From Anaerolineae bacterium (GTDB taxonomy: Bacteria; Chloroflexota; Anaerolineae; Promineifilales; Promineifilaceae), in contig JAMLHW010000008.1 of NCBI GenBank assembly GCA_023954475.1, positions 1-64,000 of the forward strand: a stretch of 64,000 bases of DNA, in the 5' to 3' direction. Both the position numbers and the translations under genes were made by a program. Below, piece after piece: positions 14,768-64,000 of this stretch. Numbering within the stretch: the first letter of the stretch is position 1; the number at the start of each line of letters is the position of its first letter. The notes beneath the pieces were generated by a model. That model had not been told where the DNA came from. It saw only the letters and a list, made by a program, of their open reading frames with translations, and searched no databases.

Positions 14768-14783
14768 AACCAGGAGGAGCAGC

Positions 14784-39529: not shown

Positions 39530-40309
39530 TCATGCAGTAAATCCACCGTCCACCATAAAAACGCCGCCTGTGCAATACGCTCCGGCGTCCGATGCCAGGA
39601 AAACGGCCAGTCCGGCAACCTCATGCGGCAGTCCAATACGACCGAGCGGTACATTTTGCAAAAACATCTGTTTGATCGGGTCATTTTGCCACAAGGCGCG
39701 ACTGAATTTGGTCTTGATCAGGCCAGGGCAAATGACATTGGCGCGTATCTGGTACGGGCCCCATTCCTGGGCAAACACTTTGGTCAGATTGATCAACGCC
39801 GCTTTGCTGCTGCTGTAGATGCCAATGCCGCGTTCTGGTGTAATCCCGCCGATGGAACTGATGTTGATCACGGAACCGCGTGATGCCTTCAATTGAGGGA
39901 AGGCGCGTTTGCATATCTCAAACGGTCCTTTGACATTGACGGCCATGATTTTGTCGAATGCACCTTCATCTGTATCGACGACAGCACCAAATACCGGGTT
40001 TGTTGCGGCGTTGTTGACGATGATGTCAATTCGGCCGAAAAGAGTCACCGTTTCATCCACTAATGCGTGCGCCTGATCGACATAGCCCACATTGGCCGCC
40101 ATCGCGCTCGCCTGCCAGCCGCGCTCCCGGAACTCAGCAGCGACTTCATCGACCGCCTCCTGTTTGCGGCTGCTAACGACAACGGTTGCGCCCAGTTCGG
40201 CCATTCCGGCGGCAATCGCCTTGCCGATACCTTTGCTGGCACCAGTCACAACGGCGACTTTACCGCTCAAATCAAACAATTCACGCATGGTTGGTTCTGA
40301 ATCAGTCAT
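39530..40309 (-). CDS. Short-chain dehydrogenase/reductase
   Basis: 259 aa classical SDR. The NAD(P) motif is TGASKGIG (residues ~23-30), with NNAA, the catalytic Ser in INISSIGG, and YSSSK (Tyr-x-x-x-Lys). The arginine in VVSSRKQ after beta2 favours NADP. ICPGLIKTKFSRALW and GGVFMVDGGFTA close the fold. The start has GGAG seven bases upstream, and a TACAAT at 40349-40344 may be its -10 box. By position it is the first gene of the SDR-dehydrogenase-kinase unit. Confidence 0.9.
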   Translation of the reverse strand: MTDSEPTMRELFDLSGKVAVVTGASKGIGKAIAAGMAELGATVVVSSRKQEAVDEVAAEFRERGWQASAMAANVGYVDQAHALVDETVTLFGRIDIIVNNAATNPVFGAVVDTDEGAFDKIMAVNVKGPFEICKRAFPQLKASRGSVINISSIGGITPERGIGIYSSSKAALINLTKVFAQEWGPYQIRANVICPGLIKTKFSRALWQNDPIKQMFLQNVPLGRIGLPHEVAGLAVFLASDAGAYCTGGVFMVDGGFTA

Positions 40310-40429
40310 AGTACAGCTCCAGGTTACTCGACGGTTTACCGCTATTGTAGAGGATTCGTCAAGAAAGGCGAAAGGGCAGCGGTCATGGGCAACAAGGCAT
40401 CCGGTTCCATTCCAGGCTCAGAAAAACTC

Positions 40430-58579: not shown

Positions 58580-58810
58580 CTTGTTTTCTCCTTGTTGAAA
58601 TCTGTTACTCTAGCACCTGATAAACAGCATACACCAAACATGTAGGCCGGCACAATAGCAAAATACCCCGCAGTAGGTCGAATGAAACTGCGACCGGGTC
58701 GTATCGCGAGTTGACATTGACATGTTCTTTTTATGGCGCTATGCATACTTGCGTCAATTGGGAGACGATAAGGCAGTGTTTTTTCTTTCCTTAACCCGTA
58801 CAATCCTGCG

Positions 58811-58864
58811 TTAACAAGACACTAACAGCATCTTGACATAGCGTTAAAACGAGTAAGTTATACT
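58811..58864 (+). promoter_or_regulatory. Pho-box-like promoter (four 11-bp repeats)
   Basis: Hexamers TTAACA (58811), CTAACA (58822), TTGACA (58833) and TTAAAA (58844) recur every 11 bp, all on the same helix face. The last ends nine bases before TATACT (58859-58864). This is the arrangement of PhoP/PhoB-activated promoters, in which direct repeats replace the -35 box. Confidence 0.6.
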
Positions 58865-58870
58865 GGGGAC

Positions 58871-58928
58871 ATCTTCTCCTCCTCCGCATAAGGGAATTGG
58901 GCAAAACGTTCGATTCCCTTTTTGTGTT
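58871..58928 (+). ncRNA. Putative ~57-nt small RNA with CU-rich 5' end
   Basis: It would start about seven bases after TATACT. The 5' part reads TCTTCTCCTCCTCC, complementary to ribosome-binding sites of the GGAGGAGGA type. It ends in a terminator hairpin: AAGGGAAT (58890-58897) with ATTCCCTT (58913-58920), extended by wobble pairs to a 5-base loop, then TTTTTGTGTTT. No ORF fits. It could also be a leader/attenuator of the downstream ABC operon. Confidence 0.4.
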
Positions 58929-58929
58929 T
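58890..58929 (+). terminator. Rho-independent terminator after the Pho-box-like promoter
   Basis: A stem of 8 perfect pairs plus about five more with wobbles, a short loop at 58903-58907, then a T-rich run from 58919 to 58929. It lies ~145 bases before the ABC exporter start. Confidence 0.75.
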
Positions 58930-59074
58930 CGGCCGAAACTCACCCCCTCTATATGACCTTCTACACTGCTGTCACACCATGATTGGTACTATACTGGAAT
59001 TGGCGCAACATTTGATCGAAAACCAGCGTATTGATCAATAGTTGTTGGTATGGCAACTAACAACAAGAGGTAAC

Positions 59075-60019
59075 ATGGCACAATCGACGGCAATCGTCGC
59101 CACAACACTCTCTAAATCCTTTGACGAACTCAAAGCAGTTGACGCCGTTACATTTACTGTGGCGCGTGGTGAAGTGTTTAGCCTGCTAGGCCCAAATGGA
59201 GCTGGCAAAAGCACGACGATTTCCATGTTGGCCTGTCTGCTACGCCCCGAATCGGGCGACGCAACTGTGATGGGGTACTCTATTCTCGATGATCCACAAG
59301 CAGTCAAAGCCTGTATCGGCGTTGTGCCCCAGGAAATTGCCCTCTACGAAGACCTCAGCGCGCGTGAAAACCTCGAATTCTGGGGCAAGATGTATGGTTT
59401 GCGCGGCGCTAAACTCAAACAGCGCGTTGATGATGTTCTCGCCCTGATTGGGCTGACGGATCGGCAAAAAGATCGCGTCGATAAATTCTCGGGCGGCATG
59501 AAGCGGCGCGTCAACATCGGCGTCGCGTTGCTGCACACACCCGATGTAATCATTATGGACGAGCCAACGGTGGGCATTGACCCGCAAAGTCGCCGCCACA
59601 TCCTCGATGGTGTCAAAGACCTCAATCGGCAAGGCGTCACCGTCCTCTACACGACGCACTATATGGAGGAAGCGCAGGAACTATCCGACCACATTGCCAT
59701 CATGGATCAAGGAAAGATCATTGCCGGTGGCACGCATGATGAACTGGTGACAATTGTCGGTGAAAAAGACCGCATTGAAATGGAATTGAGCCATTCAGCA
59801 CCTGAGCTATTGTCACAATGGGGCGCGTTGGAGGGAGTCGAAGCTGTTTCGGCCGAAAATGGGATCGTCACTGTCCTCGTCAACGACAGCAACCGAATCT
59901 TGCCACACCTATTCGGAGCTGCCAGTCAACACGATGTGCGCATCACATCGGTCACCATCGAAGAACCCAATCTTGAAGCCGTCTTTTTGCATTTGACCGG
60001 TCGTGCACTACGCGACTGA
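59075..60019 (+). CDS. ABC-2 exporter ATPase
   Basis: 314 aa. Walker A is GPNGAGKST, the Q-loop is VVPQEIALYEDL, the signature motif is FSGGMKRR, Walker B is VIIMDEPTVGID, and the switch His is in LYTTHYMEEAQ. The C-terminal ~90 residues are the DrrA/NatA-type regulatory tail. Start: the ATG at 59075 with AAGAGG four bases upstream. It heads a three-gene operon with two permease subunits, making a drug-, lipid- or ion-exporting pump. Substrate unknown. Confidence 0.92.
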   Translation: MAQSTAIVATTLSKSFDELKAVDAVTFTVARGEVFSLLGPNGAGKSTTISMLACLLRPESGDATVMGYSILDDPQAVKACIGVVPQEIALYEDLSARENLEFWGKMYGLRGAKLKQRVDDVLALIGLTDRQKDRVDKFSGGMKRRVNIGVALLHTPDVIIMDEPTVGIDPQSRRHILDGVKDLNRQGVTVLYTTHYMEEAQELSDHIAIMDQGKIIAGGTHDELVTIVGEKDRIEMELSHSAPELLSQWGALEGVEAVSAENGIVTVLVNDSNRILPHLFGAASQHDVRITSVTIEEPNLEAVFLHLTGRALRD

Positions 60020-60039
60020 CAAGCACCTTGAAATTGAGC

Positions 60040-61287
60040 ATGAAAATAGTTGCGATAGCCGTCAAAGATATGAAACAGTCATCGCGGACCGCGTTGGTCT
60101 GGGTGTTCATGTTCGTCGTACCGTTGGGCATCACACTGCTGTTCTATTTCATGTTTGGCAACATTGCAGCCGGTGATGAGTTTGAACTGCCCCAAACTGC
60201 CGTTGTTTTGGTCAATCAGGACAGGGGTTCGCTGTCCGGCGGTGGCTCGATGGGTGCGACCGTGGCCGACATTTTGCAGCAGGAAGCTTTTGCTGAATTG
60301 ATCGTCGTGACAGAATCGGCCGATGCCGACGCAGCTCGCGACCGCGTTGATAAAGGCGAAGCGGATGTCGCTTTGATAATTCCTCCCGATTTAACCGACG
60401 CACTGCTGCAAGGCAATGGTTCAGCCACCGTCGAATTGCACAAAGACCCGACTCTGACGATAGGTCCGGCACTGGTTGAAGGAATTGTCAGCCAGATTCT
60501 GGACGGGTTTGCGGGGACAACTATCGGCACCAAGGTGACGTTGGAGCAGTTGGAGGCGCAAGACGTTGCTATTACGGCCCAGATTGCACAAGAGGTCGGG
60601 ATGGCATTTTCGGCCGATGCACAGACACCGCCAGAGGCGTTGATTGCACTTTCCACGCCCGACAATCAGGTTGAACAAAACCCACTAGCCGATTTGTTGG
60701 CCGGGATTCTGGGTGGCATGATGGTCTTCTTTGCCTTCTACACGGGCGGCGCAACGCAGCAGACAATTTTGATTGAAGAAGAACGCGGCACATTGGCGCG
60801 GCTGTTCACGACACCGACGCCTATTCGCACCATCATGGGCGGCAAATCAATGGCGACGTTGTTCAGCCTGATCGGCCAGGTAGTTATTTTGATGGGGGCT
60901 GGTGCCCTGGTTTTTGCCATTGATTGGGGTGAGCCGTTGCCAATGCTGCTAGCTGCAATTGGTTTGATATTGATTGCGGCTGCGACGGGCGTTTTTCTCG
61001 TTTCGATGCTGAAAAATACCCGCCAGGCAGGCACTGTTTTCGGCGGTGTGCTAACCATAACCGGCATGGTGGGTCTTCTACCCATATTCATGAGTGGTGC
61101 AGGGGCGCCTGACGCGGTCATTTTTGCATCACTGCTGGTGCCGCAAGGGTGGGCGATGCGCGGATTGACGCTGAGCGCGCAGGGAGCCACCGTCACCGAA
61201 ATGTTGCCGACATTTGGCGTGCTTCTGCTCTGGTGCGCTGTGTTCGTAGCGATTGGTCTGACCCGGATGCGGCGACGTTTTGCTTGA
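60040..61287 (+). CDS. ABC-2 exporter permease
   Basis: 415 aa. One N-terminal helix (VWVFMFVVPLGITLLFYFMFG) is followed by a ~170-residue external domain and five helices near the C-terminus, beginning at LLAGILGGMMVFFAFYTGG. The cytoplasmic loop EEERGTLARLFTTPTPIRTIMGGK is the ABC-2 signature that contacts the ATPase. The ATG 60040 lies 20 bases after the ATPase stop; a TTG at 60028 is possible. It probably forms a heterodimer with the next gene product. Confidence 0.88.
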   Translation: MKIVAIAVKDMKQSSRTALVWVFMFVVPLGITLLFYFMFGNIAAGDEFELPQTAVVLVNQDRGSLSGGGSMGATVADILQQEAFAELIVVTESADADAARDRVDKGEADVALIIPPDLTDALLQGNGSATVELHKDPTLTIGPALVEGIVSQILDGFAGTTIGTKVTLEQLEAQDVAITAQIAQEVGMAFSADAQTPPEALIALSTPDNQVEQNPLADLLAGILGGMMVFFAFYTGGATQQTILIEEERGTLARLFTTPTPIRTIMGGKSMATLFSLIGQVVILMGAGALVFAIDWGEPLPMLLAAIGLILIAAATGVFLVSMLKNTRQAGTVFGGVLTITGMVGLLPIFMSGAGAPDAVIFASLLVPQGWAMRGLTLSAQGATVTEMLPTFGVLLLWCAVFVAIGLTRMRRRFA

Positions 61288-61296
61288 GGTAGTGTG

Positions 61297-62508
61297 ATGC
61301 GCATTTTTGATTTGGCAGTAAAAGACATCCGGCAGATTGTCCGCGATCGCAAGGCGTTCCTGTTCTTGCTGGCGATGCCCATCACGTTTACTGTTTTGTT
61401 TGGCATTGGCTTTGGCGGGTTTCATGCCGGCGAAAATGCGGATTTGCGCTTGCCAGTTGGCTGGCTGGATGAAGACAACTCTGCTGCAAGCATTGCCATG
61501 CACGCTATGCTTTCACAATCGCAGGTGGTGCGATTGGTTGATGCCGGCATCATGCGCAACGAATTGATGGCGCAAGTCGATGAAGGCACCGTTGCAGCCG
61601 CTGTGATTGTGCCGTATGGTTTTGGTGGGCAATTGCGTGATGGTGACGTGATACCTTTGGATTTGTTGGCAGATGGCAGTAGTCAGGCAGGATTTTCGGC
61701 CGAAACCGAGATTCAGGCAGCCGCTCAGCGCCTCTTTGCCGCTGCTCGTGCCGCTCAAATCAGCGCAGCAATCGCGGAAGCTCACGGCGTTTCGGCCGAT
61801 TACGATGGCGCATTGGCACGTGCCATGGCTGCTTGGTCATCGCCGCCGGTTACTGTTTATGTGACAGAGACGGGATTTTCGGCCGAAGATCAAACGTTGC
61901 TGGGATCGGCCAACGCGTTTGCCAATACCTCACCCGGTATGATGGCGCAATTTGCCATCGCCGGCCTGTTGAGCGCAGCTCAGATTTTGACACTGGAGCG
62001 CAAATCCGGTTCTTTGAAACGGTTGCTGACGACTAATATGAGCCGCAACGCGATATTACTCGGTCATTTTGTGGCGATGTTTCTGATCATCTTCGCGCAA
62101 ATGTCGTTGCTGGTGTTGTTCGGCCAACTGTTTTTGCGGCTCAACTATTTCAGTGCGCCGGTGGCGACTCTGCTCCTGATCACCATGTCGGCCTTGTTCT
62201 CGGCCAGTCTCGGCTTGCTAATCGGTGTGCAAGCCAAATCGGAAGAGCAAGTTGTCATGTATGCGTTGGTGGCGATGTTTGTGCTCGCCGCTTTGGGTGG
62301 GGCGTGGCTGCCATTGGAGTTTACGCCGGAGACCTTTCAGCGTATTGCGTTTATGACGCCGATAGCGTGGATGATTGACGGGTTTCAGGAAATCAGCGTA
62401 CGGGGGCTGGGTCTGACGGCCATTGCAGATTCACTACTGGTGTTGCTGTTGTTTTCGGTCGCGTTGGTTGGTCTGGCGTTGTGGCGGTTTCGGTCGGAGG
62501 AGCGGTAG
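61297..62508 (+). CDS. ABC-2 exporter permease, second subunit
   Basis: 403 aa, paralogous to the preceding permease. It has an N-terminal helix (FLFLLAMPITFTVLFGIGFG), an external domain and five C-terminal helices, with the loop LERKSGSLKRLLTTNMSRNAILLGH in place of EEERGTL. FTPETFQRIAFMTPIAWMIDGFQE is also family-typical. The ATG at 61297 follows GAGGTAG by five bases. Three palindrome copies lie inside this gene at codons reading SAE or SAD. Confidence 0.88.
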   Translation: MRIFDLAVKDIRQIVRDRKAFLFLLAMPITFTVLFGIGFGGFHAGENADLRLPVGWLDEDNSAASIAMHAMLSQSQVVRLVDAGIMRNELMAQVDEGTVAAAVIVPYGFGGQLRDGDVIPLDLLADGSSQAGFSAETEIQAAAQRLFAAARAAQISAAIAEAHGVSADYDGALARAMAAWSSPPVTVYVTETGFSAEDQTLLGSANAFANTSPGMMAQFAIAGLLSAAQILTLERKSGSLKRLLTTNMSRNAILLGHFVAMFLIIFAQMSLLVLFGQLFLRLNYFSAPVATLLLITMSALFSASLGLLIGVQAKSEEQVVMYALVAMFVLAALGGAWLPLEFTPETFQRIAFMTPIAWMIDGFQEISVRGLGLTAIADSLLVLLLFSVALVGLALWRFRSEER

Positions 62509-63616: not shown

Positions 63617-64000
63617 GAATTGACTCCTTTGCGCTCTTACAAACGCTGTAACCTGTCACACTTTGCTGTGGCACGCTGGTTTTGCCTTTATCGCGCGTTG
63701 ACTTATGATCCATTTTGGGAAGGGTCAGGATTGAGTTGCGGCTTCATCGTCCGCAACTCATCACTAGAGCTGATTGTAAGAGGATAAGGTGTTACCTGAG
63801 ATCTGTCAACTCTAAGCAAGCCCCAGTGTCTTGAACATATTGCGACAGAGTCTTGCCATGTTGTAGTGAAACGCGATTTCTTTGCCAGACTTTAACGCGT
63901 TGTTATCCAGCCGTTAACACGCATTCGCTATACTTTAAATCAAGATGACGATTCGCTGTGACTGAAATACAGTACCCCCAGTCATCGGCTTGTCACGGGC
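63617..64000. other. Right-end intergenic region
   Basis: 384 bp without a gene I can support. It contains a perfect 10-bp hairpin (63732-63741 with 63751-63760, TGAGTTGCGG/CCGCAACTCA) of unknown role and a Pho-box-like promoter at 63892-63934 facing out of the window. The DNA is visibly more AT-rich than the rest. Confidence 0.7.
63892..63934 (+). promoter_or_regulatory. Second Pho-box-like promoter
   Basis: TTAACG (63892), TTATCC (63903) and TTAACA (63914) recur every 11 bp, and the last ends exactly nine bases before TATACT (63929-63934). The spacing matches that at 58811-58864. The regulated gene lies beyond the window. Confidence 0.55.

Follow-up and report, generated by a model that had tools for sequence, protein, structure and literature searches.

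A stretch of the + strand between 58811 and 58923 of the window (the whole 64,000-nt stretch of Anaerolineae DNA analyzed here) probably specifies a Pho-driven RNA of ~53 nt, which belongs by its layout to a group of RNAs with a C/U tract and a hairpin, and whose C/U part would pair with ribosome-binding sites. Because related genera carry the same layout of promoter, C/U tract and hairpin, the Pho-driven C/U-rich hairpin RNAs of this Chloroflexota family look like an undescribed RNA group rather than a product of chance. If this is correct, the Chloroflexota, for which our literature searches found no small RNA of this kind, would have a group of such RNAs under Pho control, and phosphate starvation would be linked directly to translation control.

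The promoter and the predicted RNA

The promoter region, 58811 to 58864, reads TTAACA-N5-CTAACA-N5-TTGACA-N5-TTAAAA-N9-TATACT on the + strand. Its four TTAACA-like hexamers (starting at 58811, 58822, 58833 and 58844) form a Pho box from 58811 to 58849, recognized from the sequence and by motif searches, in which the spacing is exactly 11 bp. The -10 element TATACT (58859 to 58864) lies 9 bp past the last repeat, the same spacing as at other Pho boxes in the genome and the family. Compared with four TTAACA repeats, the box scored 21 of 24, while no other site in the window scored above 18 and the best score in ten first-order random sequences of the size of the window was 16. The region has the features of a Pho box, with hexamers in an 11-bp phase that replace the -35 element and stop 9 bp before the -10 element. 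No -35/-10 pair of the ordinary sigma-70 type is present at this promoter, as would be expected if it is activator dependent. A preliminary description of this DNA had reported four hexamers phased by 11 bp and ending nine bases before TATACT, and both its coordinates and its geometry were correct.

Downstream of TATACT, we found GGGGAC, the run ATCTTCTCCTCCTCC and then an intrinsic terminator, consisting of a stem of 13 pairs (58890 to 58920, + strand) with a T run (58919 to 58923). With the start placed from the -10 element and the end from the T run, the predicted small RNA extends from 58871 to 58923 on the + strand. Its 14-nt pyrimidine run, TCTTCTCCTCCTCC (58872 to 58885, + strand), is complementary to the RBS-type sequence GGAGGAGGAGAAGA. 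The fold of the 57-nt stretch, in which the C/U part is unpaired, has an energy of -20.3 kcal/mol versus -9.1 ± 2.2 kcal/mol for shuffled sequences (z = -5.1). The anatomy is that of a standalone small RNA, with its own promoter, its own intrinsic terminator and no ORF between 58871 and 58923. Together with the presence of the layout in other genera, this anatomy lends good support to the very short, terminator-ended RNA suggested previously, and we infer that 58871 to 58923 is transcribed with these ends. Rfam covariance models gave no match to the window at the gathering threshold or at E <= 1, and a scan of the relatives' loci detected only a tRNA elsewhere. The opposite-strand reading (GGAGGAGGAGAAGATG), which yields just a four-codon ORF (MSPV), was dropped.

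A palindrome located after the terminator (58927 to 58938) is highly iterated; across the 5.12 Mb of genome G000 we counted TTTCGGCCGAAA 672 times versus 2 times for a reversed control, and the window contains TCGGCCGA 124 times. It resembles the cyanobacterial HIP1 with another core. In the relatives' loci, ACGGCCGT, which is absent from the window, is the frequent form of the palindrome (342 in 401 kb).

The next gene after the element, on the same strand and ~150 nt past the terminator, belongs to an ABC exporter operon (59075 to 62508). As the preliminary description had considered, the element could be a leader or attenuator of this operon, with the terminator mostly stopping Pho-driven transcription and read-through taking place under some condition. 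This would fit with the proximity and shared strand of the operon, as well as with the presence in other genera of the same kind of element ahead of phoU, pstS-like or surE genes. However, the layout of Pho box, C/U tract and terminator hairpin is missing upstream of orthologous ABC operons (with ATPase identities of ~61-72% for the operons inspected upstream), and the operon has a separate TATACT at 58990 to 58995. Moreover, we saw no sequence that could fold into an antiterminator. Given the orthologs and the separate TATACT, we consider an exporter leader quite unlikely.

Pho boxes in the genome and across the class

The window is located on contig C25 of the 5.12-Mb genome G000, which we searched for four TTAACA repeats in 11-bp phase, allowing at most three mismatches. 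The search gave four matches, compared with none for the reversed control. One is the window site, and the other three are found at pstS (C21:381480, with the PstS domain at 381861), at a second pstS (C1:317022), whose PstS domain is encoded on the opposite strand at 316044-316793, and at phoU-phoR (C1:40430, with PhoU at 39722-40351). Genes for an OmpR-type regulator and a PAS/HisKA kinase adjoin phoU (C1, ~40.8-42.9 kb), so a cognate pair is encoded. Weaker matches were detected before genes for a phosphate permease, which its sequence assigns to the PiT type, for an acid-phosphatase-like protein (Pfam match below threshold) and for a choice-of-anchor I protein; the distance to the -10 element is kept at several of these matches. 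We also noted that the box between phoR and phoU (L026, C1:40430-40468) has good TTAACA repeats on both strands and is perhaps a two-way promoter. Another strong Pho box of the window, at 63881-63934, points in the + direction and likewise has TATACT 9 bp past its repeats; the ~230 bases that follow contain no + strand gene and no terminator, and next comes a gene for an ABC permease, located on the opposite strand and disrupted by an insertion sequence.

We scanned 396 genomes of the class with a model of the 54-bp box that uses sequence only (consensus TTAGCAAAACGNTAACANNNNGTTAAACNNNTGTTAAC, then 9-10 bases and TATNCT). Sites found earlier were part of its training set, such that their rediscovery is not independent, while the sites in other families are. 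Outside the family, most sites are ~26-61 nt before genes for PstS-like lipoproteins, recognized from their N-termini, and this position across the class indicates that the motif is the Pho box of this group. With the same motif at pst and pho genes both genome-wide and class-wide, the earlier reading of the 58811 promoter as a Pho regulon promoter is strongly supported, and Pho control in vivo would be expected. With this model, the Pho regulon can also be traced in the genomes of uncultured bacteria. In other families, Pho boxes (L250, L272, L274, L285 and L290) were located 23-38 nt ahead of genes whose products begin MGLADLHIHT and, judged by this N-terminus alone, look like PHP-type phosphoesterases. 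Additionally, strong Pho boxes of several genera of the family (L130, L131, L132, L133, L141, L152 and L163) are immediately followed by surE (5´-nucleotidase-type), and SurE appears to be a member of the Pho regulon there.

The C/U tract and hairpin in related genera

The family was searched using the box alone, with no condition on the sequence behind it. A tighter four-repeat pattern, to which the window site has 0 mismatches, gave 27 matches in the family versus 1 in the control. Two kinds of family box were observed, those with a gene (surE or pstS-like) starting within ~80 nt and those with no close gene, the latter often being followed by a C/U-rich tract, mostly with a hairpin. Counting family boxes that score at least 33 and defining a C/U tract as a 20-nt window with at least 17 pyrimidines, we detected the tract in 15 of the 26 boxes without a close gene versus 0 of the 15 with one, a comparison for which the near/far split and the pyrimidine cut-off were set after seeing the data and a few gene starts were assigned by hand. 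The 15 C/U boxes represent 15 genomes from ten genera, with species of one genus not being independent. The arrangement of promoter, C/U tract and hairpin is present in other genera, and the lack of conservation that the preliminary description had named as evidence against its proposal is not what was found.

The arrangement in the window could have arisen by chance if a true Pho box of a lost gene came to lie beside an unrelated terminator and a fortuitous C/U run. In random 120-nt stretches, 17 pyrimidines are reached in 5.8% and 18 in 1.4%, so that ~6% hold an equally pyrimidine-rich window, and the strong Pho box at 63881 is also without an evident product. In addition, a search for DNA homology to 58790-58940 in 59 genomes, none of the same genus, returned only the window itself, the palindrome that follows the terminator and brief matches attributable to chance. 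The same order of elements is found in many genera, however, the hairpin is far more stable than shuffled sequences (z = -5.1), and the + strand terminator, located between divergent genes, serves no other evident transcript. A chance assembly thus seems improbable.

Copies of the element differ in what they precede. Those of G000, G015, G001, G022 and G002 are standalone, as is probably the copy of G026. For G015, the RNA is located between a same-strand gene and a convergent Memo-like gene and, given that this next gene is convergent, has no gene or mRNA to lead. Other copies are leaders, of phoU in genera g22 and g6, of PstS-like genes in G009 and G011 and of surE in G007. Of the 15 boxes with a C/U tract, nine belong to such leaders of Pho genes, for which a role in cis is therefore possible.

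Comparison of pairs of copies revealed which parts are kept. Between the related species G001 and G022, the ~100 nt that run approximately from the start of transcription through the terminator are identical, while the two differ in the -10 region, just past the terminator and in the neighboring gene, and one of them has ~190 bases between the RNA and sufE that the other lacks. In another genus, G005 and G025 have the 34-nt C/U motif ATGTGAGTTTCGTTTTCTCCTTCTCTATTGCGAC in common without a single difference; the DNA around it has ~50% identity, and the hairpins that follow have changed in sequence with the pairing kept. In four species of genus g22, the phoU leader is kept, with a C/U tract of ~32 nt and a hairpin, and the DNA upstream of the promoter can hardly be aligned. 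The copies of G026 and G001, which are from different genera, have 20 of 21 bases in common (AAYATCCTTTCCCTTGGCGAA) just before hairpins whose inner stems are completely different. For the window copy, the best match to G015 was reached by 33 of 2000 shuffles and the best matches to other genera by 93 to 1025; this copy is tied to the others by layout, C/U content and the short ACATCY motif, with weak sequence homology. The motif A(C/T)ATC(C/T) precedes the C/U run in G000, G015, G001 and G026, and twice in G007. As it is short and was noticed afterwards, we treat it as a lead only.

These comparisons bear on two further explanations. The window transcript could be the relic of a Pho-gene leader, in which the C/U tract and hairpin acted in cis on the translation or stability of phoU, pstS or surE, and which has lost its gene. 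Leaders of this kind exist elsewhere; two genera have them ahead of phoU, two ahead of a PstS-like gene and one ahead of surE. Nonetheless, standalone copies occur in several genera, and the RNA of G001 and G022 has stayed identical though the DNA to the next gene differs by ~190 bases in length, which argues for a function of the RNA itself, leaving a relic unlikely. It is also conceivable, if hardly probable, that the C/U-rich RNA is a decoy for a pyrimidine-binding protein (a cold-shock protein, ribosomal S1 or Rho) in phosphate starvation, as pyrimidine content is kept better between genera than exact sequence. However, the exact conservation between G001 and G022 (~100 nt) and between G005 and G025 (34 nt) suggests that more is kept than base composition.

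Possible action and relation to known systems

Our preferred reading is that, at low phosphate, a PhoB/PhoP-type regulator would bind the four 11-bp repeats and activate RNA polymerase at TATACT, with transcription starting near 58871 and halting at the terminator near 58923. The resulting non-coding RNA of ~53 nt would have a 5´ part that is single stranded and rich in C and U, followed by a terminator hairpin, and pairing of the C/U part with the purine-rich ribosome-binding sites of mRNAs would lower translation when phosphate is short. We infer pairing as the most likely mechanism since strong ribosome-binding sites are complementary to the C/U run and the rhizobial RNA NfeR1 is the nearest functional parallel. 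ACAUC is also the complement of GAUGU, such that pairing could reach over the start codon; in the window, an RNA beginning at 58871 would be without the first bases of ACAUC.

The interpretation in the preliminary description is, as a whole, partly supported. The ribosome-binding sites it named for an anti-Shine-Dalgarno role, AGGAGGAGC at 14772 and AAGGAGG before the DUF11 gene, are both at plausible starts. Its proposed action and targets are conjecture; in a target scan of the window, the seed had only a slight advantage over shuffled seeds, with a mean pairing energy of -9.3 kcal/mol versus -8.2 kcal/mol and 3 of 100 shuffles as good. The best sites among the ribosome-binding regions scanned in the window are at doubtful or unrelated genes, and we claim no target. 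A broader and rather doubtful possibility is that the Pho-controlled C/U-rich RNAs of the family imitate the anti-Shine-Dalgarno sequence of 16S rRNA and broadly damp translation initiation when phosphate is scarce, moving between standalone positions and leaders of Pho genes, with some copies reaching the start codon through the complement ACAUC.

Literature searches for Pho boxes or Pho-controlled small RNAs in Chloroflexota found nothing on point. The PhoB/PhoP Pho boxes of E. coli, Bacillus and cyanobacteria, located at pst and pho genes, consist of 11-bp direct repeats ~9-11 bp before the -10 element with no -35 element; the version described here has four hexamers of the TTAACA type and was mapped computationally in a Chloroflexota class. 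In Gram-positive bacteria, RsaE/RoxS, 6C RNA and LhrC are short RNAs in which C-rich single-stranded stretches pair with Shine-Dalgarno regions. The window RNA differs from them in sequence, regulator and phylum and has no match in Rfam. The alpha-r14 RNAs of Rhizobiales, including NfeR1 (SmelA075), are small RNAs of nutrient stress with unpaired anti-Shine-Dalgarno motifs of the CCUCCUCCC type and variable stems, and in Sinorhizobium the motifs of NfeR1, which is under the control of LsrB and NtrC, silence mRNAs by covering the translation start (PMC10746234, PMC3927594). In these alphaproteobacterial RNAs, the motif is located in the loops of three or four hairpins (PMC10746234, PMC3927594). 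The window RNA, in contrast, does not have several hairpins with CCUCCUCCC loops and is predicted to consist of one terminator hairpin with the C/U sequence in its 5´ tail, expressed from a Pho box in a member of the Chloroflexota.
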